From a virus: 25,795 bases of DNA. Each line of letters starts with the position of its first letter. Within the stretch, counting starts at the first letter, position 1. Shown in pieces: positions 1 through 25,795 of this stretch. Made by a program: the position numbers and the translations under genes. The notes under the pieces were generated by a model. That model did no database searches. It was not told the origin of the DNA and saw only the letters and a list, made by a program, of their open reading frames with translations. The stretch spans positions 1 to 25,795 of the IMG/VR virus record IMGVR_UViG_3300020084_000086; one strand, given 5' to 3'.

Positions 1-44
1 TGTTCTAACACACTCATATTTCTTTTTTGTTCTAACATATTCAT
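1..44 (-). CDS. Possible 5' end of a gene cut by the window edge
   Basis: An open frame starts at 44 (second ATG at 38) and leaves the window at base 1. AAAGGA lies just upstream, 3 nt from the first ATG and 9 nt from the second, a good ribosome binding site. The visible codons begin MNMLEQKRN and then nearly repeat (MSVLE), because the DNA carries a 27 bp direct repeat (1-27 and 28-54), exactly nine codons. Only 14 complete codons are visible, so coding status is uncertain. The alternative is a non-coding repeat. Confidence 0.3.
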   Translation of the reverse strand, partial: MNMLEQKRNMSVLE

Positions 45-62
45 ATTTCCTTTTGTTTTATC

Positions 63-129
63 GGTCCGCGAGGACCTGAGCAATACCAAAGCCCGACTAT
101 GCCCAGTAACCGTAGGTGGCTACTGGGCA
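63..129 (-). terminator. Two hairpins downstream of the 168-aa gene
   Basis: Nine nt after the stop codon at 139, the transcript can fold a 12 bp stem (arms 118-129 and 100-111, one G-U pair, 6-nt loop). A second perfect 5 bp stem with a 4-nt loop follows at 63-76. Neither is followed by a run of U, so a classical intrinsic terminator is not shown. A processing or mRNA 3'-end stabilising structure before the next gene is equally possible. Confidence 0.4.
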
Positions 130-138
130 CAATGAACC

Positions 139-645
139 TTAAGCACTGAAGAGCGTTGCAACTGCGGCTGCTGTTTCAGGTGTTTTGCCTGATTTTACTT
201 TAGCGCCAAAGGATCCTTTGGCAAGCACTTCAACTATAGCAGCTTTGCTGTTACTAACCTTCTCTCCTTTTTCCACTTTTGTTATTTTCCAAGCTTCACG
301 AAACTTAGCTGGAATGGCTTTTGTCTGTGGTACGTTAGTCGTGATAGAATTCACGTACTCCGCAGCCTTACGGCCGTTGCGGACCACATCTAACTTCAAG
401 CCAGCATAACGGGCAATCCAAATGGCATGCCGCGCCCGCCTGGTTCCGCCTACTTTAGCGGATAACCCACTTAATGTAAACCGACCTTTACCGGCCACAA
501 GCAATTCGCGTACAGCCGCAAGGCAGAGCGCCGATGTTTTGGTCTCGGTCGGGGAAAGAGGATTCAATGCTTTCGGCGTTTTCGCCGGTTTCTGTTTAGG
601 TGTTGCGGTGGCTTCAAGCACATCCGCAGTCATATCTTTGCTCAT
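139..645 (-). CDS. Basic unknown protein, possible winged-helix fold
   Basis: A 168-aa protein preceded by a strong ribosome binding site (AAGGAGGC, 8 nt before the ATG). The first 35 residues are rich in Lys, Pro, Ala and Thr and look disordered. Residues about 36-95 could form a small helix-turn-helix or winged-helix unit: TLSGLSAKV, then the basic helix RRARHAIWIARYAG, then a strand around LDVVRN. The remainder is Lys/Ala-rich. The family is not recognised. The basic charge suggests nucleic acid binding, which is inference. It is probably expressed from the consensus promoter at 816-844 through a leader of about 160 nt that holds a small ORF. Confidence 0.75.
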   Translation of the reverse strand: MSKDMTADVLEATATPKQKPAKTPKALNPLSPTETKTSALCLAAVRELLVAGKGRFTLSGLSAKVGGTRRARHAIWIARYAGLKLDVVRNGRKAAEYVNSITTNVPQTKAIPAKFREAWKITKVEKGEKVSNSKAAIVEVLAKGSFGAKVKSGKTPETAAAVATLFSA

Positions 646-716
646 AATAGAGCCTCCTTAAATTTTGGTTAGTCACATTCAAACAAAACAACATCATCAT
701 CATTTTCTTAACATTC

Positions 717-803
717 TTATCTCATACAGTGACCTCCGTTTATGTAAACCTTAATAAATGCCAACACCGTCCCTCCAATAAAAATGAGAAAGATAGTGCC
801 CAT
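717..803 (-). CDS. Very small membrane peptide, 28 aa
   Basis: An ATG at 803 opens a 28-codon frame directly behind a perfect sigma70 promoter (-10 box 816-821). Residues 2-21 are almost entirely hydrophobic (starts MGTIFLIFIGG), enough for one membrane span, and the C-terminus ends HCMR. There is no good ribosome binding site before this ATG, and the predicted 5' leader is only about 6 nt. An internal GTG has GGAGG upstream and would give 15 residues. It could be a real micro-protein or a leader ORF for the downstream 168-aa gene. Confidence 0.35.
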   Translation of the reverse strand: MGTIFLIFIGGTVLAFIKVYINGGHCMR

Positions 804-815
804 ATATCTTGGCTT

Positions 816-844
816 ATTATAACAAACCTGCATCATTTTGTCAA
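816..844 (-). promoter_or_regulatory. Perfect consensus sigma70 promoter
   Basis: On the minus strand TTGACA (839-844), a 17 bp spacer and TATAAT (816-821): 12 of 12 consensus bases at the optimal spacing. It reads toward the 28-aa ORF and the 168-aa gene. Transcription would start near 809-810. This site makes the genes below 810 a separate unit from the ligase. Confidence 0.85.
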
Positions 845-866
845 TACCAGAGCCACAATTCCCTAA

Positions 867-998
867 CTATATGAAATATTGAGCCCCTGTAACAGGCATA
901 ACCCGGCCACAACGGGTCAACGTGGCAGCCCTTAGCGATGCCACCGAGGCAGACTTAATGGCGGCTCCAATAACCTCTAATCCTGTCCTTTTACTCAT
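867..998 (-). CDS. Small basic ORF overlapping the ligase stop
   Basis: A 43-codon frame begins MSKRTGLEVIGAAIKSASVA and ends GAQYFI. Its ATG (998) overlaps the last codons of the ligase gene in an ATGAGTAA junction, and GGAG lies 9 nt upstream inside the ligase. This close coupling is the packing style of this genome and supports translation. The peptide is Ala/Ser/Arg-rich and not recognised. Without homologues a fortuitous frame cannot be excluded. Confidence 0.5.
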   Translation of the reverse strand: MSKRTGLEVIGAAIKSASVASLRAATLTRCGRVMPVTGAQYFI

Positions 999-2145
999 AA
1001 TCCCGAACTCCTAAACCGACGGGAAACCTAGGCTTGCCATCTTCTGACTTTCCTTGGTACCGTACACTTAATTCCCTACCCACGTACTTTTTCCAATTCC
1101 TCCATTGTTCACGGCGGTACTCGTAAGAGCCACGGCAACGGACTGAAAATTCTCTTTCGGGTCCTGTTTTGCCATTCCCGGCATCACAGGTAAAGATAGC
1201 GGTTCCTTCATCTTTTCCTTCGCCTTCTACTGCACCAAGGATTTTGAATTCGGCATCATCGAAGTCTTTTAACTTGAGGAGTTGGTTTGACCTGAATTCA
1301 TAAACATAGCCATCTGGTCCACCGCTACGGACTATCGTACCCTCATACCCATCGGTTACAAATTGCGTATGGTACTGCATGACCTCACTTTCATCTTTGG
1401 CTTGGTAAGTCTGTACCTTAATGGCTAGGCCAGGTTTATAATCTTTGCGTTTCACAAAGCGGTCTGTGAACGATTTGCCCGTATCAGGTACGTCATAATT
1501 CCAAAACCTAACGTACTGTTTGAGGCCGTTCCAATCTGGCTGTTTCTCCTCCTTAACTAAGGAAGTCAATTTTTGAAATGAAATATCACCGTGGCAATAG
1601 GCTTCACCATCAAGACGTTCGCCAACATCCATGATTGTCACCATGAAAGGTGTTAAGAACGAAAGGTTCTTATAGGGTTTATTTTTGCGGCTGGTGTAAA
1701 CCACTTCTGTTTTAGACACACGGGTCGCTATAACACGCACCCCATCTAGCTTCGGCTGCACCCAAACTGGGTAAACCAGTTTATGCTTCCGCTCGTGGAA
1801 TTTATTGGCCAGCATTGGCAGGAGGTTAGGTCCAACCGACTTCTTTTCTTTTCCCACACCTTTGGCCAAAGCCTTTAGGTCGGTAACGTAATTCTTGTCT
1901 TGTTTCCGCTTCCAGGTGCTTTCGGCTTCGGCGGCAGCTTGCTCAAACGGCGTAGTTTCATTCACCCGCCCGAGGTTTTTGCCCTCCTTCACTTTCTTAG
2001 TAGCTAATTGCTTCTTCCCACCCTGGGCGCCATGTTCTGTATAGATCACCGCTCCCTGGGAAGCTTCCTCAATCCAAATGCGCCATTCTTTAACTGTGCC
2101 CCTAGAGGCTAAGCCGTAAAGTTTTGGAAATTCTTTTTTCTGCAT
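991..2145 (-). CDS. ATP-dependent DNA ligase with N-terminal WGR-like domain
   Basis: Seals nicks in duplex DNA through an enzyme-AMP intermediate, probably joining lagging-strand fragments and repair nicks during phage replication. The 384 residues contain a WGR-like domain (about 1-85) ending in the conserved GRVNETTP...EQA stretch typical of phage ligases of this type. The nucleotidyltransferase core follows: motif I KLDGVR with AMP-accepting Lys132, motif III LDGEAY (178-183), IIIa near FWNYDV (214-219), motif IV DGYEGTIV (265-272) and motif V KLK (291-293). An OB-fold region runs from about 300. AGGAAAG precedes the ATG. Partners in this window are the RNase H and the primase. Confidence 0.95.
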   Translation of the reverse strand: MQKKEFPKLYGLASRGTVKEWRIWIEEASQGAVIYTEHGAQGGKKQLATKKVKEGKNLGRVNETTPFEQAAAEAESTWKRKQDKNYVTDLKALAKGVGKEKKSVGPNLLPMLANKFHERKHKLVYPVWVQPKLDGVRVIATRVSKTEVVYTSRKNKPYKNLSFLTPFMVTIMDVGERLDGEAYCHGDISFQKLTSLVKEEKQPDWNGLKQYVRFWNYDVPDTGKSFTDRFVKRKDYKPGLAIKVQTYQAKDESEVMQYHTQFVTDGYEGTIVRSGGPDGYVYEFRSNQLLKLKDFDDAEFKILGAVEGEGKDEGTAIFTCDAGNGKTGPEREFSVRCRGSYEYRREQWRNWKKYVGRELSVRYQGKSEDGKPRFPVGLGVRDYE

Positions 2146-2158
2146 TATCTTTCCTTTT

Positions 2159-2383
2159 TTACCGTATCCGTATCGCAGAACCCATCACATCCGCAGCATA
2201 CACATCGCCCATTTCACCATTAGGCACAATGGGAGTTTTTACAAGACAAAACCACCTAGCATACGGTTTAGTATCATCCGCCTGCCATTTCTTTAAGACG
2301 TACCACGTCCAAGAGCCGTCATGGGACTCCCAGATTTCATAAGCTTGTTCTTTTTTTACCGTTTTGCCACAAAGATTTTTCAT
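2159..2383 (-). CDS. Small conserved-looking phage protein, function unknown
   Basis: A 74-aa protein with an excellent ribosome binding site (AAGGAGAAGG before ATG 2383), ending 13 nt upstream of the ligase start, so probably co-transcribed with it. It is rich in aromatics (WTWYVLKKWQ, YARWFCLVKTP) and has a GDVYAADV segment, a layout I associate with small phage proteins of unknown function. It has no membrane segment and only two cysteines, so zinc binding is not indicated. Confidence 0.75.
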   Translation of the reverse strand: MKNLCGKTVKKEQAYEIWESHDGSWTWYVLKKWQADDTKPYARWFCLVKTPIVPNGEMGDVYAADVMGSAIRIR

Positions 2384-2426
2384 ACCTTCTCCTTCTTATT
2401 ATAATTTGACTGTGCCGCTGTTCGGT

Positions 2427-2696
2427 TCAATGTACACATTTCGAATGAATGGCCATCCTGGAAGTGCAATCCATCCACTGTTTAATTGTGAGTCTTGGTA
2501 TATTTTGATAATAAATTATTATACCCATCATGCAGGTGGCAGAGCAATAAGTAAATGGCATACCCTGGAGCTCCGGAGCTACTGGCGTAGACCAACGATT
2601 CCACAACCACGATTTAAAATCCCGGCATTCAGTTGGGCGCACCCAATGAATCCGCCAAGATAAATTGTTCTTATCGGTCGAAATGTGTACATTCAT
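2427..2696 (-). CDS. Small WVRP-motif protein, paralogue of the 5.2-5.4 kb gene
   Basis: About 89 aa. I chose the third of three tandem ATGs (2696) because AAGGAG then lies 7-8 nt upstream. The core WRIHWVRPTECRDFKSWLW clearly resembles WTLWIYWVRPNECLNFKVWLW in the gene at 5207-5437, so the two are paralogues 2.6 kb apart. The sequence is rich in Trp, Met and Cys. Function unknown. It lies in a run of small genes between the gp88-like gene and the ligase. Confidence 0.65.
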   Translation of the reverse strand: MNVHISTDKNNLSWRIHWVRPTECRDFKSWLWNRWSTPVAPELQGMPFTYCSATCMMGIIIYYQNIPRLTIKQWMDCTSRMAIHSKCVH

Positions 2697-2725
2697 CATC
2701 ATTCTCCTTTTAATTAGTGTGATTG

Positions 2726-2974
2726 TTAACGCCATTCAACGATTCCGATTCCAATACTGTCGGGGTTTTTAGATTTTTTCAAGTGAACCCTAAACCAAGA
2801 ACGGGCATGCCGTTCAGCAGCAAGCTTTGTTTGTCTCCAACTAATTCTCCCATCAGGAGTCAATATCAGGTAACCGTCAGAGAATCCAATCCCTGCATCA
2901 CGGTCGCGCCAGTATTCATCATGTTCAATGATAATTTTTCCTTGTTTTGTTATATTGTCCTTCATCATTTTCAT
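2726..2974 (-). CDS. Small unknown phage protein
   Basis: An 82-aa soluble protein starting MKMMKDNITKQGKIIIEHDE; either of the two ATGs three and four codons in is also possible. The start is 8 nt after the stop of the preceding gene and no strong ribosome binding site is visible, so translational coupling is likely. The beginning (ITKQGKIIIEHDEYWRDR) is similar in layout to the upstream neighbour (ITKRGTLVIEREGPLYEER), suggesting a tandem duplication that has diverged. Function unknown. Confidence 0.65.
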   Translation of the reverse strand: MKMMKDNITKQGKIIIEHDEYWRDRDAGIGFSDGYLILTPDGRISWRQTKLAAERHARSWFRVHLKKSKNPDSIGIGIVEWR

Positions 2975-2982
2975 TTTTATTG

Positions 2983-3222
2983 CTACTTTCTTCTGAATGG
3001 GAACGGTGATCTATACAGGTACTTGTTATACAGGTTCTTATCAAAATCAAACTCATTCTCAAACTGGAAAAACCAGCCTCTTGACTCGGCATCTGGCAGG
3101 GAAATTTTCCAGTCCCCTACGGTACTTGCCCAAGAATTTAAGCGTTCTTCATAAAGTGGTCCCTCACGTTCAATGACAAGTGTTCCGCGTTTCGTTATTA
3201 TATTGATATTGGCCTTCCTCAT
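2983..3222 (-). CDS. Small unknown phage protein, likely relative of its downstream neighbour
   Basis: A 79-aa protein from ATG 3222, which sits 1 nt after the stop of the zinc-finger-like gene, with AAAGAG upstream. It begins MRKANINIITKRG and is rich in aromatic and acidic residues (WFFQFENEFDFDKN), with a basic C-terminus. The N-terminal ITKRGTLVIE segment resembles the next gene downstream. The first bases of this gene belong to a 21 bp sequence shared with the end of the gp88-like gene (see 3217-3237). Function unknown. Confidence 0.65.
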   Translation of the reverse strand: MRKANINIITKRGTLVIEREGPLYEERLNSWASTVGDWKISLPDAESRGWFFQFENEFDFDKNLYNKYLYRSPFPFRRK

Positions 3223-3237
3223 TTTATTGCTCTTTCT
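3217..3237 (-). repeat. Fragment 3 of the gp88-like gene tail (21 bp)
   Basis: Identical over 21 bp to 3806-3826, the last codons and stop of the gp88-like gene. Here it spans the last codons and stop of the zinc-finger-like gene and the start of the next gene. It is the third of three ordered fragments of one continuous gene tail. Confidence 0.85.
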
Positions 3238-3415
3238 CACGCTCCGTTGTCATCCAGTTACGGTAAAACACTAGATGCCTGGGGCAGAAGTAATATGGGG
3301 CACCATTGAGATAAATCGCCGCAGGCATTAGCGCCGATCCATAATGCCGTGACGCCTCGCGGTTTACAGCACATTCCTCATAACAACCAACAGCATCACA
3401 AGTTTGCAATGTCAT
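3224..3415 (-). CDS. Small protein with a cysteine-rich zinc-binding pattern
   Basis: About 63 aa from ATG 3415, chosen because AAAGGAG lies 9 nt upstream. The open frame extends further but only into the promoter module. The pattern C-x4-C-x3-C near the N-terminus (TCDAVGCYEEC) plus a later CPRH suggests one structural zinc site. It is the first gene behind promoter copy A (3452-3480), so it is probably expressed from that promoter, followed by the small genes down to the ligase. Function unknown. Confidence 0.65.
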   Translation of the reverse strand: MTLQTCDAVGCYEECAVNREASRHYGSALMPAAIYLNGAPYYFCPRHLVFYRNWMTTEREKEQ

Positions 3416-3422
3416 ATTCACG

Positions 3423-3577
3423 TTCTCCTTTTCTCCATTCATCTTGACTATACTATACCATAAAACCAAGATTGGTGCAAGGATTATTATTCGCGTAACT
3501 ACGCAATTTTAAAGGGGTTTTAAGAGAATGGCGTAACTAATTGATAATATTGGGGTTTATTTTTATGTGTTATTCTG
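3423..3577 (-). repeat. Promoter module, copy A (155 bp)
   Basis: Aligns without gaps to 4786-4940 with 7 mismatches (about 95 % identical), same orientation. It holds the ribosome-binding region, a sigma70 promoter and about 100 bp upstream with AT-rich tracts and the 9-mer TAGTTACGC present twice. A third, more diverged copy lies at the right end of the window. The intergenic part of this stretch contains no gene of its own; the 3' end of the 55-aa ORF overlaps it at 3563-3577. Confidence 0.9.
3452..3480 (-). promoter_or_regulatory. Sigma70-type promoter, module copy A
   Basis: On the minus strand TTGCAC (3475-3480), a 17 bp spacer and TATAGT (3452-3457). Transcription should start near 3445 and give a leader of about 30 nt with AAAGGAG before the zinc-finger-like gene. 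The same arrangement recurs in copies B and C. Confidence 0.8.
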
Positions 3578-3730
3578 CTTGGTTGGACCGTGCAATCTGG
3601 ATAGGGTTGTTATCGTCGCTATTTTCGCCTTCCCCACTTGCCGCGTATACTGTTCGGCCCGTTCGCGGGTGTAGAAAAAACGCTCCACTGTCTGCAAGAA
3701 TCCAGGATAGGAAACTCTAAAGAATGTCAT
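3563..3730 (-). CDS. Small basic protein, 55 aa
   Basis: An ATG at 3730 with GGGGG 10 nt upstream opens a 55-codon frame (starts MTFFRVSYPGFLQTVERFFY; Arg/Lys-rich middle; ends KQNNT). The last 13 or so codons are built from a 26 bp copy of the gp88-like gene tail (3578-3603) read in a different frame. The protein may therefore have acquired its C-terminus when this sequence was inserted. Not recognised. Confidence 0.5.
   Translation of the reverse strand: MTFFRVSYPGFLQTVERFFYTRERAEQYTRQVGKAKIATITTLSRLHGPTKQNNT
3578..3603 (-). repeat. Fragment 2 of the gp88-like gene tail (26 bp)
   Basis: Perfect 26 bp match to 3825-3850. In the gp88-like gene it encodes IQIARSNQ; here it is read in another frame as the end of the 55-aa ORF. 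Confidence 0.9.
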
Positions 3731-3734
3731 GGTT

Positions 3735-3800
3735 TTAATTCCCCCTTGTTGTCCTAAGCTTGTTTATGACCCGCGTACTGTACATTACCATGGTTTCCAT
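3735..3800 (-). CDS. Mini-ORF reusing the gp88-like C-terminus (21 aa)
   Basis: Starts 7 nt after the gp88-like stop codon with GAGGG 4 nt before its ATG, and encodes METMVMYST, then RVINKL, then RTTRGN. RVINKL comes from a 20 bp exact copy of the upstream gene (3755-3774 = 3849-3868) in the same reading frame. It may only be debris of a duplicated tail; translation is possible but not shown. Confidence 0.25.
   Translation of the reverse strand: METMVMYSTRVINKLRTTRGN
3755..3774 (-). repeat. Fragment 1 of the gp88-like gene tail (20 bp)
   Basis: Perfect 20 bp match to 3849-3868, which encodes RVINKL near the end of the gp88-like protein. It is followed in order by fragments 2 and 3. Confidence 0.9.
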
Positions 3801-3807
3801 CACACCC

Positions 3808-4473
3808 TCATTTTATTGCTCTTTCTTGGTTGGACCGTGCAATCTGGATAAGCTTGTTTATGACCCGCCCATGCGCTGGATAAGCGATAACCGCTACATC
3901 TTTGCGGTAACAGGCATCACAAGGACCGCACTTCCCACCGCGGCTATATGCGCCACAAAGATACGCCTCAGCCGGGGCTTCATTTGCTGTCGGCACAATT
4001 ACTGAACCATGTAAACCCGGCGTATAGTTTCCGTCAATGCTATCGGCAGAATACCGCACCGCTACATTTGGCAGAGTTGCGATTTGTTCTAAGATATGGC
4101 GAAATTTTGCAATTTTGTAGGAACGGGTCGGCAGCCAATGCCGGACCCAGGGAGTCTGTTCAATTACCTGTTTAATTTTATTGGCCAAGGCAGGATGGTA
4201 AATGTCACCGCTATCAAACCAACGGAAGAGGACTTCCTTCTTCAGGGCTTTAACCATATCTCCCACCCAATTAGCATCGCGCCACGCTTCTCGGTTTGCT
4301 TCCCGGGCTTGCTTGACAACTGGAAAAACATAAAATCCTGTCCGTGCGTAACAACCCGCACAGGCTGGAACGGCGGTACCATTCTTATCACGCGCTCCTG
4401 GGCACGTTTCCCATGCGGCCAGGCTCCACGATTTAGCATTTAGTTTTGAGGTTTGTGAAAGATGGTTCATCAT
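3808..4473 (-). CDS. Phage gp88-like cysteine-rich protein
   Basis: A 221-aa protein resembling the phage gp88-type family of unknown activity. Recognisable parts are ETCPGA (22-27), CAGCYAR (38-44), FRWFDSGD (83-90), WLPTRS (113-118), YSADSID (141-147) and a C-terminal cluster C173, C182, C185, C188. Seven cysteines in two groups suggest a bound metal or iron-sulphur centre, and related phage families have been compared with radical-SAM-like barrels; this is inference. AAGGA lies 4-7 nt before the two tandem ATGs. It starts 11 nt after the stop of the 98-aa gene and shares promoter copy B. Its 3' end recurs downstream in fragments. Confidence 0.75.
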   Translation of the reverse strand: MMNHLSQTSKLNAKSWSLAAWETCPGARDKNGTAVPACAGCYARTGFYVFPVVKQAREANREAWRDANWVGDMVKALKKEVLFRWFDSGDIYHPALANKIKQVIEQTPWVRHWLPTRSYKIAKFRHILEQIATLPNVAVRYSADSIDGNYTPGLHGSVIVPTANEAPAEAYLCGAYSRGGKCGPCDACYRKDVAVIAYPAHGRVINKLIQIARSNQERAIK

Positions 4474-4484
4474 GTTTTCCTTTC

Positions 4485-4781
4485 TTACACAACCATACTT
4501 TTAAAAAGGTTCATTTGTAATTCCTCAAGCACCACTGGTTGAACCTGATTTTCTTTAGCACCTAAGAAAGAATGGTGGATAAGAGGTTTTTCGATTCCTC
4601 TAGCTAGAAACCATTCTTTGAGGGCAGACAATTCTTTGTCAATAAACATAAAGGAGGCAACTCCTCTACCATTGGTGGCTTTCTCTATCCGTTGTTTTCG
4701 TAGGTGGTCAAGGTGGATTAACGCACCATTAATACCCATACTTTCAAATTTGTCGTTATAGCTTCTTTTTCTTTTTCTCAT
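4485..4781 (-). CDS. Unknown 98-aa protein
   Basis: Start at ATG 4781, with AAAGGAG 6-7 nt upstream. The frame extends further only into the promoter module, where its residues (YSIVKMNGEKE) merely mirror those at copy A. The protein starts with a very basic stretch (MRKRKRSYNDK), then has mixed helices (GALIHLDHLRKQRIEKATN, DKELSALKEWFLARGIEKP). No family recognised. It is the first gene behind promoter copy B and is followed by the gp88-like gene. Confidence 0.65.
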   Translation of the reverse strand: MRKRKRSYNDKFESMGINGALIHLDHLRKQRIEKATNGRGVASFMFIDKELSALKEWFLARGIEKPLIHHSFLGAKENQVQPVVLEELQMNLFKSMVV

Positions 4782-4785
4782 TTGC

Positions 4786-4940
4786 TTCTCCTTTTCTCCA
4801 TTCATCTTGACTATACTATACCACAAAGCCAAGATTGGCGCAAGGATTATTATCCGCGTAACTACGCAATTTTAAAGGGGTTTTAAGAGAATGGCGTAAC
4901 TAATTGATAATATTGGAGTTTATTTTTATGTGATATCCTG
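4786..4940 (-). repeat. Promoter module, copy B (155 bp)
   Basis: The second copy of the module at 3423-3577, gap-free with 7 mismatches. It contains the promoter at 4815-4843 and the same upstream region with two TAGTTACGC 9-mers and AT-rich tracts. No coding sequence is visible in it. Confidence 0.9.
4815..4843 (-). promoter_or_regulatory. Sigma70-type promoter, module copy B
   Basis: On the minus strand TTGCGC (4838-4843), 17 bp, TATAGT (4815-4820). It drives the 98-aa gene and the gp88-like gene. Start expected near 4808. Confidence 0.8.
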
Positions 4941-5005
4941 AAGAAAAACAATAGGTTATGATATTGAAAGATAAGAGAGGGATTTTGAGGTAATTAATAA
5001 ACCGC

Positions 5006-5146
5006 TATACCTAAAAATGAATCATTCATTTATACCTAAAAATGAATCATTCATTTATACCTAAAAATGAATCATTCATTTATACCTAAAAATGAATCAT
5101 TCATTTATACCTAAAAATGAATCATTCATTTATACCTAAAAATGAA
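5006..5146. repeat. Iteron array: five 25 bp repeats plus a partial sixth
   Basis: Five identical head-to-tail 25 bp units start at 5006, 5031, 5056, 5081 and 5106, followed by 16 bp of a sixth (5131-5146). Each unit is TATACCTAAA followed by a 15 bp perfect palindrome, AATGAAT-C-ATTCATT. The period is not a multiple of three, and 4941-5206 has no gene, so this is a non-coding cis element. Candidate roles: replication origin iterons, a partition site, or operator sites for a dimeric protein. Read on the minus strand each unit also carries GGTATAAAT, resembling a -10 box. Two TTGACA boxes lie just upstream (5158-5163 and 5205-5210) but at unsuitable spacing. Confidence 0.95.
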
Positions 5147-5206
5147 AGCTGGAAGATTGTCAATTTCGCTTCTTGCGCCGACGCTGTATCTAGAAGAGGT
5201 GGTTTG

Positions 5207-5437
5207 TCAATTAATTTTTAATTCCTTGGTATAATCTAATGTTATGCCCAAGATGCGGGTAACACTATAGAAAGTTCGCGTCTGGACGAAAAGATTTTCT
5301 ACGTCAGCAATCATCATATCAGCGTCCGTGGCGGTGCCACATCGATAGAACCATAACCAAACTTTAAAATTCAGGCATTCATTGGGACGCACCCAATAAA
5401 TCCATAACGTCCAATTCTTCTTACCAAATTTGAACAT
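5207..5437 (-). CDS. Small WVRP-motif protein, paralogue of the 2.4-2.7 kb gene
   Basis: A 76-aa protein from ATG 5437. Its N-terminal half (WTLWIYWVRPNECLNFKVWLW) matches the protein at 2427-2696, and its C-terminal half differs. No strong ribosome binding site is visible (weak AAGAAA). It is the last gene before the iteron array. Function unknown; the paralogy is the main evidence that it is real. Confidence 0.6.
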   Translation of the reverse strand: MFKFGKKNWTLWIYWVRPNECLNFKVWLWFYRCGTATDADMMIADVENLFVQTRTFYSVTRILGITLDYTKELKIN

Positions 5438-5475
5438 CGTTATTTCTTAGGGCCCGAGCAAACAAACCTTACATT

Positions 5476-5838
5476 CTACTTTTTTCTTTTTTTTTTGTTT
5501 TTTAATTTTCTAACTTGTTTCTGATAATCACGAATCACTTTTTCTTTGCGAGCAATATCCTTAAATAACGTACCAATCAACAAGTTGGGCCCCATCGTCT
5601 GAGGCCATTCACTCCGCGGTTCCTTTCGGAGAAAGTTCCAGGGAGCCATCGCCTTGAACGCCGATCCCATTACAGTAAATGGTTTAATTAATAAGTTGGC
5701 TTTTTGCACTATCCAACGGGTCGATTGATAGCGAAATACACGCAGGCGGTATCCATAGCCGCGGAAGATTTCAAGAGTTTTGACCCGTAATTGCTGAAGG
5801 CTCGATGTTTGCTTATTTTTCTTTCTATCTTGTAACAT
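5476..5838 (-). CDS. Very basic unknown protein, 120 aa
   Basis: ATG 5838 was chosen for its ribosome binding site (AAAAGGAG, about 8 nt upstream), 29 nt after the preceding stop. The protein is strongly basic throughout and ends in a lysine/arginine run (KLKNKKKRKK). A moderately hydrophobic part (about residues 45-70) is too polar for a sure membrane span. Nucleic-acid binding is plausible on charge alone. Not recognised. Confidence 0.65.
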   Translation of the reverse strand: MLQDRKKNKQTSSLQQLRVKTLEIFRGYGYRLRVFRYQSTRWIVQKANLLIKPFTVMGSAFKAMAPWNFLRKEPRSEWPQTMGPNLLIGTLFKDIARKEKVIRDYQKQVRKLKNKKKRKK

Positions 5839-5867
5839 TAATCTTGCTCCTTTTCTGGTTAAGTATA

Positions 5868-6242
5868 TCAAGCTGCACCTTTTGTAAGCGCAATCGCGTT
5901 AGCCACATACCGTCGGCGTTCTTGGAGGAGGGTGCGCCACCGTTCTGCTGAAAACCCGATTTCTTTACAACACCATTCAAACGTAAATGGTATGTTCCAA
6001 TTATCTTCTTTATTGTCCATTAGCCAATTCCATGCATCAATAATTTCAGGTGCTAGGATTTTAGTTCCTTTTACAATCCGATATTTGAGGACAGCACAAT
6101 CTTCCAACGCTTGGTTGATAATAGCCTCAATTAAACGCTCTCCGGATTCAAACCCCACCGATGGGCAAAAGCCAAATAGGTCCTCATCCTGTTCCTTGTC
6201 GCAATCAAATTCACGATTATCTTCTAATGTCTTTTTATGCAT
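5868..6242 (-). CDS. Unknown phage protein with a helix-turn-helix-like C-terminal half
   Basis: 124 aa. The N-terminus is acidic (KEQDEDLFGF). Residues 63-110 (LAPEIIDAWNWLMD, then IPFTFEWCCKEIGFSAERWRT) follow a pattern I associate with a widespread class of small phage and mobile-element proteins: a helix, the W-x-x-PFTFEW segment, a turn (IGFSAE) and a basic helix. A DNA-binding helix-turn-helix is the likeliest reading. It starts 9 nt after the stop of the zinc-ribbon gene and shares its promoter at 6574-6602. Confidence 0.7.
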   Translation of the reverse strand: MHKKTLEDNREFDCDKEQDEDLFGFCPSVGFESGERLIEAIINQALEDCAVLKYRIVKGTKILAPEIIDAWNWLMDNKEDNWNIPFTFEWCCKEIGFSAERWRTLLQERRRYVANAIALTKGAA

Positions 6243-6251
6243 AAAGGTAAC

Positions 6252-6530
6252 TTATTTTTTCCGGTCTTTGTCAATTTGTGGTAAAGGCGTCAATACTTGG
6301 CGCCGTACGGGTTCAGGTGCGACCACTAATTTATCAGACTTTAAAAGGTATGGGGCCGGCGCATGGTTGATGCAAGCCAAACACATCCTAGCTTCTTGTA
6401 CAATTTCGTGGCCGTGTGTTACCGCTCCTTCATGGGAACGGTATGTAACGGTCCGCATGGAACGCACGACGGGAAGGGATGGTACGCGTGGCGGCGAGAT
6501 AGTGTGGCAAGATTCACAGACGAACATCAT
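6252..6530 (-). CDS. Small zinc-ribbon protein
   Basis: 92 aa with two CxxC knuckles, CESC (5-8) and CLAC near residue 50, about 45 residues apart, the usual spacing for a zinc ribbon. The intervening RTVTYRSHEG...HEIVQEARM layout is familiar from small phage zinc-ribbon proteins of unknown role. The C-terminus is proline- and charge-rich. AGGAGTCA precedes tandem ATGs at 6530. It is the first gene behind the promoter at 6574-6602, leading a unit with the two genes that follow. Confidence 0.75.
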   Translation of the reverse strand: MMFVCESCHTISPPRVPSLPVVRSMRTVTYRSHEGAVTHGHEIVQEARMCLACINHAPAPYLLKSDKLVVAPEPVRRQVLTPLPQIDKDRKK

Positions 6531-6573
6531 TGACTCCTATTGGTTAAAGTGGTCCCTGAATACTATTCTATTA

Positions 6574-6602
6574 ATTGTACCATGACTTTGCATTGGAGTC
6601 AA
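6574..6602 (-). promoter_or_regulatory. Sigma70-type promoter for the zinc-ribbon unit
   Basis: On the minus strand TTGACT (6597-6602), 17 bp, TACAAT (6574-6579): 10 of 12 consensus bases. Start expected near 6567, giving a leader of about 37 nt with AGGAG. The 160 bp gap 6531-6690 otherwise holds only AT-rich sequence and a short palindrome next to the deaminase stop. Confidence 0.85.
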
Positions 6603-6690
6603 GAATTATTTTATGGCATAACCCATTGTTTTTACAGGGAACTTAAAAATAATTTATAACCTATTGAAAACATAGCGGATTTATAAATCC

Positions 6691-7092
6691 TTAAACCGGC
6701 CTACAACGACCGATCTCTGGCTGGCCAGTGGTATAATACACTTTAGATATCCCAGCCGCCCCTAGGACCTTCCAGCAGGTTGCACAGGGCCGTGCTAATT
6801 GGTACTGCCCCATCTTATCTAGCCGGACATTGAAGAAAGTATAGCGCGGCAAGCTAGGGCGGGGGCTATTCCGTAAGTGGGCCATGAGCCGGCGGAGGGC
6901 ATGGATTTCAGCATGGCGGGTATATTCTGAACGGTTAATCCGGCGGTCAGCTTGGGGATTAAGTTCTTTGTTCCATCCGACTGTGATAAGCCGTCCTTTA
7001 AGCAACACCAAAGTGAAATGCTTTGCTTTATCAACATTCGGACGGTGGGCATATTTATCAACGACACGCCTAATGGCAGCATTCAAGTCCAT
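6691..7092 (-). CDS. Deoxycytidylate deaminase-like enzyme
   Basis: A 133-aa zinc-dependent deaminase of the cytidine/dCMP family. HAE at 60-62 supplies a zinc ligand (His60) and the catalytic Glu62; PCATC at 102-106 supplies Cys103 and Cys106. In T4-like phages such an enzyme makes dUMP for thymidylate synthesis. Substrate (dCMP, cytidine or other) cannot be fixed from the motifs, and the protein is shorter than T4 dCMP deaminase. No ribosome binding site is visible; a strong promoter whose -10 box ends 5 nt before the ATG predicts a leaderless mRNA. It fits functionally with the ribonucleotide reductase and nucleotidase in this window. Confidence 0.85.
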   Translation of the reverse strand: MDLNAAIRRVVDKYAHRPNVDKAKHFTLVLLKGRLITVGWNKELNPQADRRINRSEYTRHAEIHALRRLMAHLRNSPRPSLPRYTFFNVRLDKMGQYQLARPCATCWKVLGAAGISKVYYTTGQPEIGRCRPV

Positions 7093-7097
7093 GCTTT

Positions 7098-7126
7098 AGT
7101 GTACTATTAGCCAGCTATTTTGTCAA
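7098..7126 (-). promoter_or_regulatory. Promoter predicted to give a leaderless deaminase mRNA
   Basis: On the minus strand TTGACA (7121-7126), 17 bp, TACACT (7098-7103). The expected start (7091-7092) coincides with the A of the ATG at 7092. The -35 box overlaps the 3' end of the upstream membrane-protein gene. Confidence 0.8.
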
Positions 7127-7343
7127 TGGTTAATAACAAATTAAACAAAGAATCTAGTAATGGTCCTATAATTGTGCCGGCACAAAACCCAATGCCAAAA
7201 AACAAACATGCTAACAGTAGAATGATGATTTTCTGGAAAGTCTCAAGGGGAGGCAGATATCCAATAGGACGGTGTAAGAAATGCTTATCAACATAAGACG
7301 CAGCTAAAAATGAAAAATTATGGAGGCCATTGAATCGGCGCAT
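7107..7343 (-). CDS. Small membrane protein, 78 aa
   Basis: The N-terminal 35 residues are basic/aromatic and soluble. Residues about 38-70 are strongly hydrophobic (IIILLLACLFFGIGF, then a glycine-containing second half), giving one long or two short membrane spans. GGAGGG lies 6 nt before ATG 7343, and the start overlaps the stop of the preceding 30-aa gene (TAATG). A holin- or spanin-like role is conceivable, but nothing specific supports it. Confidence 0.7.
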   Translation of the reverse strand: MRRFNGLHNFSFLAASYVDKHFLHRPIGYLPPLETFQKIIILLLACLFFGIGFCAGTIIGPLLDSLFNLLLTIDKIAG

Positions 7344-7435
7344 TATGGCCCTCCGCGTCCTCCATCTTTATAGATACAGGCCGCCATAATAAGCATGAGG
7401 AATAACATAAATGTAAATTGGACAATAGGATGCAT
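7343..7435 (-). CDS. Very small membrane protein, 30 aa
   Basis: ATG 7435 with AAGGA 4 nt upstream, 10 nt after the preceding stop. The first 20 residues (MHPIVQFTFMLFLMLIMAAC) form one hydrophobic segment, followed by a polar glycine-rich tail. Its stop overlaps the start of the next membrane protein, so the pair is probably translated together. The frame runs further upstream but only into the neighbouring gene. Confidence 0.5.
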   Translation of the reverse strand: MHPIVQFTFMLFLMLIMAACIYKDGGRGGP

Positions 7436-7445
7436 AGGGTCCTTA

Positions 7446-8138
7446 CTACCAGGGAATATTGCTATACGTGCAATATAGAGTATTGGTGGAGAATAATGTA
7501 TAGACTCCGCTGTTTTCCGGAAACACAAATATAAAGGATACATCCGGATGCTTTGTGGTTAACCAATTGAGGAAGTGTAGCCGGCCTGGAGTATCAGCAT
7601 GGTTAGCCCTAGTTTCTGGCCCATAATTTAGACTGCCGTCAAAAATATTCGATACGGCTTGGTCTGGCGTAGTAAGCAAAAAATCAAAACCAAAACAAAA
7701 CAACTGCGTTTTACCATGGTTAATAGCAAACCGCATAGCTGCCATACCTGCGTTCATCCGCGGACGGTTTGGGTTGCATTCCGCAGGCTCCCAACAATCA
7801 TTATCCTCTGGAACCAGGAGGCGCGACAAAGGAAAACATAAATTAGGATCAGAATGGATGCCGCGTCTGATTTCATTAACCATACCTTTATCAACGGCAA
7901 CAACATAATCTGGATAAGGATGGGTGATAGGATGGTAATTTCTATGAATGCCATTGCAGCCGTAAGTTATAATATGGGATGGTATTTGAGTAATAGAGAA
8001 TTCGAGGCGGGAAGTACCATTACCAATGATAGCCGCAGCTTCTCCCCAATCGGTACGGTAATAGTTAAAATCGTCCGCATTGGGAATATCTTTAACTACA
8101 TCATTATTCCCATCTTGTAATTCTGAATATAAGACCAT
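7446..8138 (-). CDS. MAF/DUF115-like Rossmann-type protein, possible sugar transferase
   Basis: 230 aa. The N-terminal strand-loop IIGNGTSR (37-44), YGCNGIHRNY (59-68), PDYVVAVDKGM (76-86) and the late CFGFDFLLTT block follow a layout I associate with phage relatives of the motility-accessory-factor/DUF115 group, whose bacterial members act with nonulosonic (sialic-type) sugars. Reaction and substrate remain inferred. Start ATG 8138 is just after the preceding stop, within coupling distance. Its closeness to the glycosyltransferase island at 10.5-15 kb fits a role in surface glycans. Confidence 0.65.
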   Translation of the reverse strand: MVLYSELQDGNNDVVKDIPNADDFNYYRTDWGEAAAIIGNGTSRLEFSITQIPSHIITYGCNGIHRNYHPITHPYPDYVVAVDKGMVNEIRRGIHSDPNLCFPLSRLLVPEDNDCWEPAECNPNRPRMNAGMAAMRFAINHGKTQLFCFGFDFLLTTPDQAVSNIFDGSLNYGPETRANHADTPGRLHFLNWLTTKHPDVSFIFVFPENSGVYTLFSTNTLYCTYSNIPW

Positions 8139-8141
8139 GTC

Positions 8142-8561
8142 CTACCATCCGATAGTAAGTTTTGGAAATGCTTTCTTGACTGCTTCTGGATTAATTTTGA
8201 GTTTCTTGTCTTTTACACGCAAAACAAGGAGCGCATCATCAGGATCAATATTCTCTAGCATTTGGATAAAGAGTTGTTCCCGTTTGAGTTGTTTAACCTG
8301 TAACCCTTCTTGGCTCGCTACAAAATAAATGAATTTACGGCATTCTTTATAAAGCCCTCCCTCATAGTCACTAGCCTTAGCCGCTGGTTTAAAGGGAGGA
8401 GCCCCTTCCGGAAGGAGCCATTTAGTATTTGGATTCATACCAAAACCAACAATGTTTTTCAAAGATGTGGAGGAATGTTTCAGGAGGAGGGCTGTCTGTT
8501 CGTCCACGGTTTTAGCGGCTTCAATACGTTCAATAATTTTTGAAAGGGCTTCAATCGCCAT
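8142..8561 (-). CDS. DUF6433-like T4-superfamily protein
   Basis: 139 aa, soluble and helical, resembling a family conserved next to RNase H in T4-like phages (DUF6433). Familiar parts are the IIERIEAAKTVDEQTALL N-terminus, the FGMNPNTKWLLPEGAPPF loop (about 60-77) and the DALLVLRVKDKK end. Function unknown. Its AGGAG lies in the last codons of the RNase H gene, and the RNase H stop and this ATG are adjacent (TAATATG), so the two are translationally coupled. Confidence 0.75.
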   Translation of the reverse strand: MAIEALSKIIERIEAAKTVDEQTALLLKHSSTSLKNIVGFGMNPNTKWLLPEGAPPFKPAAKASDYEGGLYKECRKFIYFVASQEGLQVKQLKREQLFIQMLENIDPDDALLVLRVKDKKLKINPEAVKKAFPKLTIGW

Positions 8562-8562
8562 A

Positions 8563-9408
8563 TTAGAAATCTCCTATTCGTGGGATGAGGCTATTTAGTC
8601 TGTGGTGCATAAAATAACTGAGCAATCCCTGCCGGGTTTTTGGGCTTGCTATTTGTACCCGCCATTCATCGAGGATGGCATTTTGCACTTTAGAAGGAAT
8701 CATTTTAAAATTTATTAATGAATTATTCCGCGCATAATTCAGCACCAAATCAGCGGGAATCCCTACGGTATAGGTATCGAGTAAAGTTTTCGATAACGAT
8801 TTTTGTTTTTTACCAGGAGTAATAAATGTATCATCGTCTGAAAGGATGTTAGGAATACCATCACTTTTATCGCCCCGGAAAATATGTTCTGCTAGGGCTT
8901 TATCTAGATCAGCAGGAAACATAACAAAATCTTTTAGCCGCGGAGAATATTGCCGAAAACCATTATACTGTGCCAACTGACCAAAGTCTTTATCACCAGA
9001 TACACAAAGGACCGACTCACGGCCAAAGAATCCTTCCGTAGCGTTAGCAGTTAAGACAGCGATAATGTCATCAGCTTCCGCACCTTCTACTGTAAGGACC
9101 AAATATGGAGAATTCTGTTTAAATTCTTCCCTCATGGTATTGATGTTGTAGTGGCAAGCATTTGAAAAAGTATTTGAAGTGGCCCGTTTAGCTGCCCTAG
9201 CAGCTTTATATGATGGAAATAATTGTTTCCTCCAATAAGAGGCACTATCACAACATAAAATAGGATCACCATAGGTTTTAAAAAAGAGCTTGCGGTATTT
9301 ACCGAGCGTAAGCCACACGCGGTGCCGCACACTGGTTATAGCATAATCCTCTTGGTGGCATACAGCCGTAGAAGCAATCGCTAATTGGCTAAAATCAATA
9401 AGGAGCAT
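8563..9408 (-). CDS. rnh: RNase H, T4 Rnh/FEN family 5' nuclease
   Basis: A 281-aa FEN-type nuclease that should remove RNA primers and short DNA from lagging-strand 5' ends. Metal-site signatures are all present: D5 in LLIDFSQ, D54, the EGAEADDI block (108-115), SGDKDF (137-142) and GDKSDGIPN (179-187). The basic SYKAARAAKR segment (66-75) matches the helical-arch region. Length is close to T4 RNase H (305 aa). The start overlaps the preceding stop (TAATG). It works with primase and ligase, both in this window. Confidence 0.92.
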   Translation of the reverse strand: MLLIDFSQLAIASTAVCHQEDYAITSVRHRVWLTLGKYRKLFFKTYGDPILCCDSASYWRKQLFPSYKAARAAKRATSNTFSNACHYNINTMREEFKQNSPYLVLTVEGAEADDIIAVLTANATEGFFGRESVLCVSGDKDFGQLAQYNGFRQYSPRLKDFVMFPADLDKALAEHIFRGDKSDGIPNILSDDDTFITPGKKQKSLSKTLLDTYTVGIPADLVLNYARNNSLINFKMIPSKVQNAILDEWRVQIASPKTRQGLLSYFMHHRLNSLIPRIGDF

Positions 9409-15122: not shown

Positions 15123-15566
15123 TTATGCTGTATTGGCAAGCTGACGTTGCCCAATAATATGGGCCGGCGGACGGCGCCATTTTCCGATAGCATCATTAAG
15201 GTAATCGTCTTTTTCGAGAACATTAAGCCGGAATTGTAAAGAGACTTCAGCATAATTCGTATCACCCCGTGTAGCATGGACAGAAATAATTTCAAATGTA
15301 AACTGGTCTAAACCAAGGTGTCCTATTTCTTCTTGTAAAAGACTAGACGATGACATATAAGACTGCCAATCAGACTGGGACCTGACACGCCGCCCTTTAC
15401 CTTTTTTCTTCCGGATTTGCCAAAAATATTTACGGCCCACATATTGCTTACCTGTAGATTTATTAGTGATAAGGTAAACAAATCCTTCTGCTTTGCCAAC
15501 ATGTTCGGGCAGAAACAGTTGCCCGCGGAATGTCCAAGGCACAACCGCCTTAGCCACTAACGCCAT
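15123..15566 (-). CDS. GIY-YIG-type nuclease-like protein
   Basis: 147 aa. The GIY-YIG signature appears in variant form as GFVYLITNKSTGKQYVGRK (28-46), followed by the basic KKKGKGRRVRSQSDW block and the DTNYAEVSLQFRLNVL segment. Similar short proteins are conserved in T4-like phages and often annotated as Seg-like homing endonucleases. Lacking a visible DNA-binding tail, it could instead be a resident repair or degradation nuclease. Start ATG 15566; weak AGG 8 nt upstream. Confidence 0.75.
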   Translation of the reverse strand: MALVAKAVVPWTFRGQLFLPEHVGKAEGFVYLITNKSTGKQYVGRKYFWQIRKKKGKGRRVRSQSDWQSYMSSSSLLQEEIGHLGLDQFTFEIISVHATRGDTNYAEVSLQFRLNVLEKDDYLNDAIGKWRRPPAHIIGQRQLANTA

Positions 15567-21964: not shown

Positions 21965-23086
21965 CTAAGCCAAATGTCGTTCGCTAACTTTGGTTCTGTC
22001 TTTGAGTTCTGTCGGTTTCCTGGGTTCGATCTTACCGTCCTTGTTGACAGTGTAACTTGTATAACTTTGTGGCAGGCGCACAAGTTGCCCATTTTTTACT
22101 TCATGCGTAACAGCATTAGCACGTCCATAACGGCCTTTGCCATAACTACTCAATCCCATAAGCCGCGCTTGCCTGTCTGGTTCAGACTCTTGCTTGGGAG
22201 GTTTAATCATTGCAACTTCATCGAGCATTGGTTCCATATCGACGCGGTCTTTCTCACCAGATAACTTGATAGCTGTATTGGCAACTGAAACCTTGACACC
22301 ATTAACCGTTTGTTGCTTCTTCGGCGCCGGTGCATTAGAGGTGCTGGGTTCTGTAGTACCAGGGGTTGCAACTAATGGGCCCGGAGATTCCTTGACCTTT
22401 TTGGCCAAAAAAGGCTTCTTCTTAGCATTCTCAGTAAACGTATCACCAATTTTCTTTGTCGTTAACCCTAAACGGTAGCTTCCGCTGCCATGTTGCTTGT
22501 TTAACTCTTTCACTTTCTTCCACATATTGTGCTTACTACCTTTATCAATTATTTTTTTGCTAGAAGCATCAAAAACAACGTGAAGATCGGAGCGTCCCCA
22601 AGCAGGAATCCCAGTCCCCGCTTCACCAACCGGCTTTTCCTTGGCCCAAAAAGGCTTCTCATCAAACTTATCACCAATTTTATTTGTCGTAATACCTAAA
22701 CGGTAGCTTCCGTTTCCATGTTGCTTGTTTAACTCTTTCACTTTCTTCCACATATCATGCTTACTACCTTTATCAATTATTTTTCTAGAAGGATCAATAA
22801 GAGCATAGTATGTTGATTTTGAAAACGCTTCACCAACCGGCTTTTCTTTGGAAACTTTCTCAAGGCCGAGTAGTTGCTTGATCTTCTTCCAGCCTAAAGT
22901 TTCCTTATCAGGCACTGGTGCTTCTGCTTCGGTAATTCCGTGTGACTTTAAGGTTTCACGCGCCTGTTCAACCGAGGGCCCGCCTAATAGGGCTTTCATC
23001 GGATGCTTTACTGTATCCAAAGCTATTTTCAGCATATGGTATGTAGGAGGATCGTGTTTATAGTCTGATAAATTTTTAGATGGCAT
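21965..23086 (-). CDS. Unknown protein with a recent internal duplication
   Basis: 373 aa from ATG 23086, next to the preceding stop (TAATATG); more upstream frame lies only inside the previous gene. The N-terminus (MLKIALDTVKHPMKALLGGP, then SVEQARETLKSHG) resembles a segment found in large-phage proteins. Residues about 90-240 contain two copies of a module IIDKGSKHxMWKKVKELNKQ followed by HGxGSYRLG, each preceded by EKPVGEA. The rest is Lys/Pro/Ser-rich and probably disordered. Function unknown; the module looks like a small ligand- or peptide-binding domain. Confidence 0.75.
   Translation of the reverse strand: MPSKNLSDYKHDPPTYHMLKIALDTVKHPMKALLGGPSVEQARETLKSHGITEAEAPVPDKETLGWKKIKQLLGLEKVSKEKPVGEAFSKSTYYALIDPSRKIIDKGSKHDMWKKVKELNKQHGNGSYRLGITTNKIGDKFDEKPFWAKEKPVGEAGTGIPAWGRSDLHVVFDASSKKIIDKGSKHNMWKKVKELNKQHGSGSYRLGLTTKKIGDTFTENAKKKPFLAKKVKESPGPLVATPGTTEPSTSNAPAPKKQQTVNGVKVSVANTAIKLSGEKDRVDMEPMLDEVAMIKPPKQESEPDRQARLMGLSSYGKGRYGRANAVTHEVKNGQLVRLPQSYTSYTVNKDGKIEPRKPTELKDRTKVSERHLA
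22441..22556 (-). repeat. Intragenic direct repeat, copy 1 (116 bp)
   Basis: Aligns to 22669-22784 without gaps, 8 mismatches (about 93 %), spaced 228 bp (76 codons, in frame). It encodes the second protein copy of the duplicated module. Confidence 0.9.
22669..22784 (-). repeat. Intragenic direct repeat, copy 2 (116 bp)
   Basis: Partner of 22441-22556, encoding the first protein copy of the module. The high nucleotide identity marks a recent duplication. Confidence 0.9.
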
Positions 23087-23087
23087 A

Positions 23088-23924
23088 TTACACCCTGTGT
23101 CCTTGCAAGGCTCGCTTAATGCGGTTGAACAAATTAAGGGATACATCGTCCAAAGCAGCATCTGGATTTATGTCCCGGTCCGGGCATTTGCACCTGCCAA
23201 ATCTTTCTAAATCATCAAGCCTATCCTCAGAAAATTCAGTTACCTGGATATCATCAGATTGGCCCGGCGTGTCCTTAGCATACTTTTTCCTAATGGCATC
23301 GGTCCCAATAAAGTTAGTATTTTCTTCTTTTTTCATATTCTCACCAAGCCTCTTTTTTGTTTGAAGGTCCATACCTGCCCGTACCGCATGGTACATTTTA
23401 ATCATTAATGCCTTGGACATGGAGGGCGGGCATCCGCTAAAGAAATTTTCTTTATCACCAGCAGCAGCCCAAGCCCGCATTTTTGAAGCTGATATACCAG
23501 TAAGACCTTCGGCATCGGGGTCCCGCATACCAGCCGACTCTACAGCGATAGACTTAAAATGGTATGCCTGATTATTATATTTCCTGAGCAAATCCCGGAA
23601 TTCATTCACCCTATCGCTACCGACAACCATGACCACCCTATCATATCCTTTTGCATCAAGCCACTCCATGGCATCAAAAATAGTGCCCGCACCAGGAGCA
23701 AGCCGAATATCTACTGTACCCAAGTCGTCCCACACCGCCTTCGCAAAATATAACTTATCATGCGGACTCAGTGGATCTGTCCGTTTATGTTGCGTATAGC
23801 TCAGGAACAAAACCGGCTTAGTATGTTCTGCCTTACCATAATTTACTAATCTATCCACCAACTTAGCATGGCCAACTGTCGGTGGATTCAATCTTCCGTA
23901 TGAAAAAACAGCAGTTGCAGGCAT
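23088..23924 (-). CDS. Cytidylyltransferase-like nucleotidyltransferase (NMNAT/HxGH type)
   Basis: About 278 aa. Nucleotide-binding signature FSYGRLNPPTVGHAKL carries the TxGH variant of HxGH. VVMVVGSDRVNEF supplies the middle strand. ISASKMRAW provides the ISxSxxR phosphate-binding motif. The protein therefore transfers a nucleotidyl group, as NMN adenylyltransferase or CTP:phosphocholine-type enzymes do; the substrate is not determined. Phage T4 NadM-like enzymes serve NAD salvage. The C-terminal 80 residues are charged and unrecognised. An in-frame TTG (23939) with TGGA 5 nt upstream is an alternative start. Confidence 0.85.
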   Translation of the reverse strand: MPATAVFSYGRLNPPTVGHAKLVDRLVNYGKAEHTKPVLFLSYTQHKRTDPLSPHDKLYFAKAVWDDLGTVDIRLAPGAGTIFDAMEWLDAKGYDRVVMVVGSDRVNEFRDLLRKYNNQAYHFKSIAVESAGMRDPDAEGLTGISASKMRAWAAAGDKENFFSGCPPSMSKALMIKMYHAVRAGMDLQTKKRLGENMKKEENTNFIGTDAIRKKYAKDTPGQSDDIQVTEFSEDRLDDLERFGRCKCPDRDINPDAALDDVSLNLFNRIKRALQGHRV

Positions 23925-25676: not shown

Positions 25677-25706
25677 ATTATCCCTTTCTTTGTTCATCAC
25701 CATAAT

Positions 25707-25735
25707 AGTATACCACAAAGCCAGGATTATAACAA
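25707..25735 (-). promoter_or_regulatory. Sigma70-type promoter, module copy C
   Basis: On the minus strand TTGTTA (25730-25735), 17 bp, TATACT (25707-25712). It drives the DUF6267-like gene and probably the genes below it. Start near 25700; the leader contains AAAGGG before ATG 25676. Confidence 0.85.
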
Positions 25736-25795
25736 GGATTAATATCCGCTTAACCGCGCAATTTTAAAGGGGTTTAATAAAATAACGCCAGCTTT
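25707..25795 (-). repeat. Promoter module, copy C (diverged, cut by window edge)
   Basis: Aligns with copies A and B over the promoter and upstream tract: GGTATACT after a shared spacer pattern, then the CCCCTTTAAAATTGCG block. It is less similar than A is to B (about three quarters identical by eye) and runs off the window end, so its length is unknown. Confidence 0.75.

Follow-up and report, generated by a model that had tools for sequence, protein, structure and literature searches.

An apparently duplicated gene junction split by two small-gene inserts in a T4-like phage

The addition of small genes between the packed, overlapping genes of phages is usually invisible, because its traces decay. 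Some integrative elements duplicate and restore the 3' end of a gene at their attachment site. T4-type phages reportedly also carry mobile regulatory cassettes, called PeSL (Arbiol et al. 2010; Comeau et al. 2014; as cited in PMC4177764 and PMC4503421), that combine a promoter with a stem-loop terminator. Tailed phages are mosaics formed by illegitimate and homeologous recombination, in which short segments of more than 90% identity are taken from unrelated phages and joined at gene boundaries (PMC2327257). In Cluster K mycobacteriophages, start-associated sequences occur in many copies, with a 13-bp sequence of the GGGATAGGAGCCC type placed 3-7 bp before start codons (PMC3203893). At the locus described here gene addition is visible, in the form of an apparently duplicated gene junction, a foreign gene together with its probable exchange partner in the same lake, and the joining sequences.

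The window, by which we mean the whole 25.8-kb virus record that was analysed (25,795 nucleotides), encodes an ATP-dependent DNA ligase, a ribonucleotide reductase, a primase and an exonuclease, and belongs to a T4-like phage. An adjoining contig (L084), which is 99.8% identical across the last 457 bp of the window, encodes a UvsX-like recombinase, a DnaB-like helicase and DNA polymerase-like ORFs. The locus lies at the end of a GP88-family gene, gp88 (3808-4473, minus strand; 221 aa; Pfam PF17338, E=4.5e-32), for which we compared 80 homologous loci; all parts of the locus discussed below are on the minus strand. Small paralogous gene pairs are found here (2726-2974 with 2983-3222, and 2427-2714 with 5207-5437), as are short inverted copies at 2037-2056/2999-3018 (19/20 identical) and 2429-2444/2678-2693 (16/16), of a kind that arose in 0-0.7% of simulations; through the first of these, an inverted fragment of the DNA ligase gene lies inside the end of gene 2983-3222. 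Elsewhere in the window, ORF 21965-23161 contains an internal duplication of ~150 bp (22428-22851, 86%), and 15123-15566 (minus strand) encodes a SegE-like GIY-YIG endonuclease (PF19835, E=1.5e-38), possibly a homing endonuclease.

The tail of gp88 (RVINKLIQIARSNQERAIK) contains three tracts, a, b and c, each of which is repeated exactly farther downstream: a (GCGGGTCATAAACAAGCTTA, 3849-3868) recurs as a' at 3755-3774 (20 bp), b (3825-3850) as b' at 3578-3603 (26 bp), and c (AGAAAGAGCAATAAAATGAGG, 3806-3826), which holds the gp88 stop TGA inside ATGAGG, as c' at 3217-3237 (21 bp). In gp88, neighbouring tracts share 2 bp at each join (3849-3850 for a/b and 3825-3826 for b/c; the shared sequences are TA and AG), while the downstream copy is split by gaps of 151 bp (3604-3754) and 340 bp (3238-3577). 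An initial annotation had reported three matches of these lengths at these positions, in the same order and with the pieces contiguous or overlapping by 1-2 bp in the gene, separated by interruptions of about 150 and about 340 bp; our measurements agree on each of these points. The split between a' and b' is not perfectly clean, because the b match stretches to 34 bp with 2 mismatches (3578-3611/3825-3858), giving a 10-bp overlap of a' and b' in gene coordinates, of which 8/10 positions are identical.

Between 2650 and 4960, no other exact direct repeat exceeds 12 bp, apart from the promoter module described below. When the window was simulated 300 times with a third-order Markov model, a direct repeat of at least 16 bp within 1.5 kb arose in 2.3% of simulated windows and one of at least 20 bp in none. 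The tracts are genuine and far beyond chance. Given their collinear order and contiguity, it is implausible that three random pieces were copied independently; by our own arithmetic, the chance of two joins both falling within 2 bp is roughly (5/666)^2.

The homologues of gp88 bear on which arrangement came first. The GP88-family C-terminus, HG[KR]xMxKVIxL, spans the a|b join in the 80 homologous loci and reads HGRVINKLIQIARSNQERAIK in the window; the homologues retain K-[VL]-I across the join. When the tail was scored against a profile of the homologues, a added 6.5 bits and b a further 6, and the real tail outscored 990 of 1000 shuffles of the whole tail, and 966 of 1000 when a was left unshuffled (1% and 3.4% did as well), a continuity test of only moderate strength (p about 0.01-0.03). 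Because GP88 homology and profile scores run through a|b, this stretch was probably continuous in the ancestral gp88, and the separated a' and b' probably represent a broken, derived form. RNA structure beyond that of shuffled sequences was not found in the gp88 tail, nor was there an Rfam match. We also considered that the gp88 tail was built from the downstream pieces by deletion; this is less likely, as family homology and a leader of another phage (L092, below) cross the joins.

The third tract has its own history. Genes 2983-3222 and 2726-2974 align at the DNA level from the exact 5' edge of c for some 80 bp (score 68; the highest of 3000 nulls reached 47), with a shared start AGAAAG(T)AGCAAT...AAAATGA. 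The DNA similarity to this paralogue, which starts at 2974, sets in precisely at the c edge, so c' is the native Shine-Dalgarno sequence and start of gene 2983-3222. It also closes the upstream zinc-finger-like ORF in a new frame (EKEQ-stop). The occurrence of c at the end of gp88 is then most simply read as the trace of a former direct overlap of gp88 with gene 2983-3222. Since c' is native to that gene, the duplicated unit was probably the overlapping gp88/next-gene junction and not the gp88 tail alone. Thus, the initial annotation's picture of one duplicated tail interrupted by two cassettes survives in part: order, contiguity, GP88 homology across a|b and an imported zinc-finger-like gene all speak for it, but c' belongs to the start of the next gene, so that a junction would have been copied.

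Downstream of c, a 31-bp join, Z (3775-3805), leads into a', which is followed by insert Y (3612-3754), by b' (3578-3611 in its 34-bp form) and by insert X. Insert Y carries a Shine-Dalgarno-like GGGGG and most of a 55-aa ORF (3563-3730), whose end is supplied by b' in a new frame, a reuse that the initial annotation had correctly recognized. Insert X consists of promoter module A (3423-3577), which starts exactly where b' ends (3577|3578), and the zinc-finger-like gene (ORF 3224-3415). In the window, copies of the module precede three unrelated genes, at 3423-3577, at 4786-4940 (module B, 95% identical to A, before a small gene at 4485-4787) and at 25678-25780 (module C), all on the minus strand; neither the window nor the rest of L084 has a further copy. 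Modules A and B contain no conserved stem-loop or terminator-like site, and the fold z-scores of A, B and C are -0.07, -1.23 and +1.24. The promoter core had 2 matches in bacterial genomes, which is chance level. About 65 bp upstream of module B lies a perfect 25-bp tandem array (5006-5146) of 5.6 copies of TATACCTAAAAATGAATCATTCATT.

We found no homologue of the 55-aa ORF in phage records or viral contigs, no match to the gene 2983-3222 and zinc-finger-like proteins in phage records, and none to the latter in bacterial and archaeal genomes; the gene 2983-3222 protein had one weak match among viral contigs, and neither the 55-aa nor the 63-aa ORF of the inserts matched a known family. Transposase, recombinase and integrase genes and terminal (inverted) repeats were absent from the inserts, with only the degenerate 10-bp overlap flanking Y. 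We rejected Y and X as intron-like or transposon-like elements, as both are without ends and without enzymes.

The zinc-finger-like gene has a close relative in an otherwise unrelated phage. Its segment 3254-3430 (177 bp) is 91.5% identical in DNA to contig L092, with 7 silent and 5 replacing changes in the 54 codons compared, and also matches contigs L093 and L094 over 126 bp, up to a contig edge. The three contigs belong to another phage, with 58.6% GC against 43.7% here, which encodes sigma-factor-like and Cas4-like proteins; no other strong match was found between such contigs and window positions 1-9000. Like L084, they originate from the PMC8245535 metagenomes of Lake Tanganyika, the window's own sample not being stated. 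On this comparison, the zinc-finger-like gene is an imported, horizontally mobile cassette. Its homology begins at AAGGAGAA, which also forms the promoter module's 3' end, and runs no farther than YRNW, leaving 16 bp before c'; the last residues (MTTEREKEQ) are encoded by this 16-bp filler (3238-3253) and by c'. The tracts therefore do not flank the zinc-finger cassette exactly, because its homology starts at the Shine-Dalgarno sequence inside X and ends short of c'. The earlier suggestion of cassettes flanked by the tracts is not supported for the zinc-finger homology (3430-3254), which misses the tract edges.

Sequence from upstream of the L092 gene recurs at the locus as well. In L092, within ~450 bp upstream of the zinc-finger-like gene, GTAATGTACAGTAC is followed by ATTGACGGTCCAACCAATAAAGGAG. 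The same 14 bp of this promoter region form the end of Z, directly before a', and the remainder of the L092 leader resembles b|c (ATTGCACGGTCCAACCAAGAAAGAG), a leader similarity of 23 bp; ATTG-ACGGTCCAACCAATAAAGGAG is the stretch that matches b|c. Elsewhere, part of b|c recurs only in L092, where it forms the 5' leader of another gene. Within the ~450-bp L092 region, the leader match was reached by 0/5000 nulls and the 14-mer match by 4/5000; taken alone, the leader match is weak (E about 0.1 when all 9 kb are considered). Parts of the exchanged operon's leader thus probably also took part. A common dispersed repeat would have undone the reasoning of the initial annotation; b|c is not such a repeat, because a scan of viral contigs for its leader part yielded only L092-type contigs (3 of 18 matches) and chance-like coding matches. 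We set aside the latter as chance, as they apparently lie inside coding sequence and without a dyad or Shine-Dalgarno context. In a contig of the exchange-partner phage (L119:4815-4830 and 5953-5965), a dyad, TGTACAGTAC, lies beside TTGACA at two promoter-like sites and may be an operator.

We consider serial illegitimate, microhomology-assisted recombination at a duplicated gene junction the best explanation of the locus, with a probability of roughly 0.55. In the ancestor, gp88 would have been followed directly by gene 2983-3222, the two overlapping at the ATGA inside tract c. The a-b-c junction would then have been duplicated in tandem, with the 31-bp Z as the join, leaving the gp88 end and the downstream start intact; because both are intact, the spare copy would have been a tolerant place for insertion. 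Next, two inserts may have broken up the spare copy, Y separating a' from b' and X separating b' from c'. X itself is a composite, in which a promoter module that the genome also uses elsewhere was fused, at the shared Shine-Dalgarno sequence AAGGAGAA, to a gene acquired by exchange with an unrelated phage from the same lake. Both imported ORFs have lost their own 3' ends and take their stop codons from b'/module A or from c'. The joins would have formed by minimal homology, 2 bp each or the degenerate 10-bp overlap at a'/b', and this fits illegitimate, microhomology-assisted recombination in a phage with a UvsX-type recombinase and T4-like replication proteins.

The repeats, the paralogous starts and the horizontal sharing with its boundaries can be read directly from the DNA; from them we infer the order of events and the enzymology. 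The ancestor, too, we can only infer, because neither phage records, viral contigs nor the 80 GP88 loci yielded an uninterrupted junction or an uninterrupted duplicate; they yielded no other cassettes between the tracts either. A nucleotide search of phage records with 2100-5200 gave no match, and exact tract b was not found in viral contigs. The 80 other GP88 loci contain no a-b-c-like arrangement, only a 22-bp start repeat in one (L029) and 14-bp matches in three. In six GP88-bearing phages, gp88 and neighbouring genes are preceded by repeats of all or part of a leader module that reaches about 80 bp (CTTGACAGCCTAGGTACCTT...ACCTAAG...CCTAAGTTATG). The unclean 10-bp overlap at a'/b' counts against serial recombination at a duplicated junction, and so does divergence within the locus: the tracts are 100% identical, whereas the difference is 5% between modules A and B and 8.5% in the zinc-finger segment. 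The tail duplication should therefore postdate those divergences, and X would need prior assembly elsewhere.

Among the alternatives, the one that survives best invokes two unrelated causes, in which c and c' would be a start-associated repeat, with stop, Shine-Dalgarno sequence and ATG reused, and only a and b would come from a broken partial duplication. Tract c has a third, gapped copy (2991-2971) where gene 2726-2974 starts. Other GP88-bearing phages commonly have start-associated repeats, 17-39 bp in length (seven of the loci compared), and leader or start modules are repeated at gene starts in two more (L027 and L030). Repeats of the c type could therefore arise independently of a and b, which also counts against the preferred reading. 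However, c and c' are exact across 21 bp whereas the third copy has insertions, c adjoins b by the same type of 2-bp overlap as is found at a|b, and the L092 leader resembles b plus part of c as one piece. We thus regard two separate causes as unlikely.

Serial template switching is likewise doubtful. Here, pieces of the gp88 end would have been copied as filler while foreign fragments were being joined, and a continuous second copy would never have existed. The other short local copies nearby, inverted ones included, show that this stretch of the genome acquires short copies of its surroundings as well, and fillers of 31 bp and 16 bp without a recognized source stand at joins; but adjacent, barely overlapping and ordered pieces are not expected from independent jumps, and c' is native to the downstream gene. 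A quite improbable extension of the duplicated-junction reading would make the locus a reusable landing site, in which the spare copy is loaded repeatedly with single small genes by the phages of the habitat, its neighbours unharmed and the stop codon provided by the site. An assembly chimera, with strain variants of the locus joined at short repeats, is very improbable. The window is a metagenomic contig, its repeats are 20-34 bp long and 3200-3900 is covered by no second contig; yet assembly usually turns on k-mers longer than such tracts, which ordinary reads span, the joins leave ORFs and start signals unbroken, and the contig end agrees at 99.8% with an independent contig, though 22 kb off. 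A dedicated cassette-loading site, with the a-b-c junction as a preferred landing place served by a specific integrase- or homing-like enzyme, is unsupported and very unlikely: two inserts do lie within one ~65-bp sequence, gp88 and the downstream gene do keep intact ends and the SegE-like endonuclease gene is present at 15123-15566, but the inserts lack recombinase and transposase genes as well as terminal repeats, no loading mechanism is encoded in the region, the zinc-finger homology boundaries differ from the tract edges, and cassettes at these tracts were found in no other genome among the viral contigs scanned.

Returning to serial recombination at a duplicated junction, the locus resembles attachment-site elements in having a gene end twice, once intact and once as a remnant farther downstream, but here there is no integrase, the remnant is split twice and the inserts are single small genes. 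As with the start-associated sequences of Cluster K, c is repeated with a Shine-Dalgarno sequence at gene starts and may contain the stop of the upstream gene (PMC3203893). In contrast to them, c differs in sequence, has two exact copies and one gapped, and includes the start codon; a GGGATAGGAGCCC-type sequence occurs in the window as a single chance-level match.

Among named systems, the promoter module comes closest to the PeSL cassettes. In both cases a plastic region of a T4-like phage has a promoter module repeated ahead of different small genes, and here the module edges cassette X; three copies do stand between different genes. However, a promoter paired with a stem-loop terminator was not found: the modules are without the conserved stem-loop or terminator that defines the system, and the gp88 tracts are not promoter elements.

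The closest correspondence is with the mosaicism of tailed phages. The window shares 177 bp at 91.5% identity with the otherwise unrelated L092, and its low-homology joins (2 bp; AAGGAGAA) lie mostly near gene ends. As in that mosaicism, there is little shared sequence at the joins and reading frames are mostly kept (PMC2327257). If the proposed order of events holds, junction duplication would be a simple way to make room for new genes, and one that could be searched for systematically in metagenomic phages. We conclude that the locus is a clear, well-preserved instance of ordinary phage gene swapping and not a new kind of system. It differs from tailed-phage mosaicism as described in that the steps are readable, the duplicated host junction being preserved as three ordered pieces, and in that the imported genes take host tracts as their new 3' ends.
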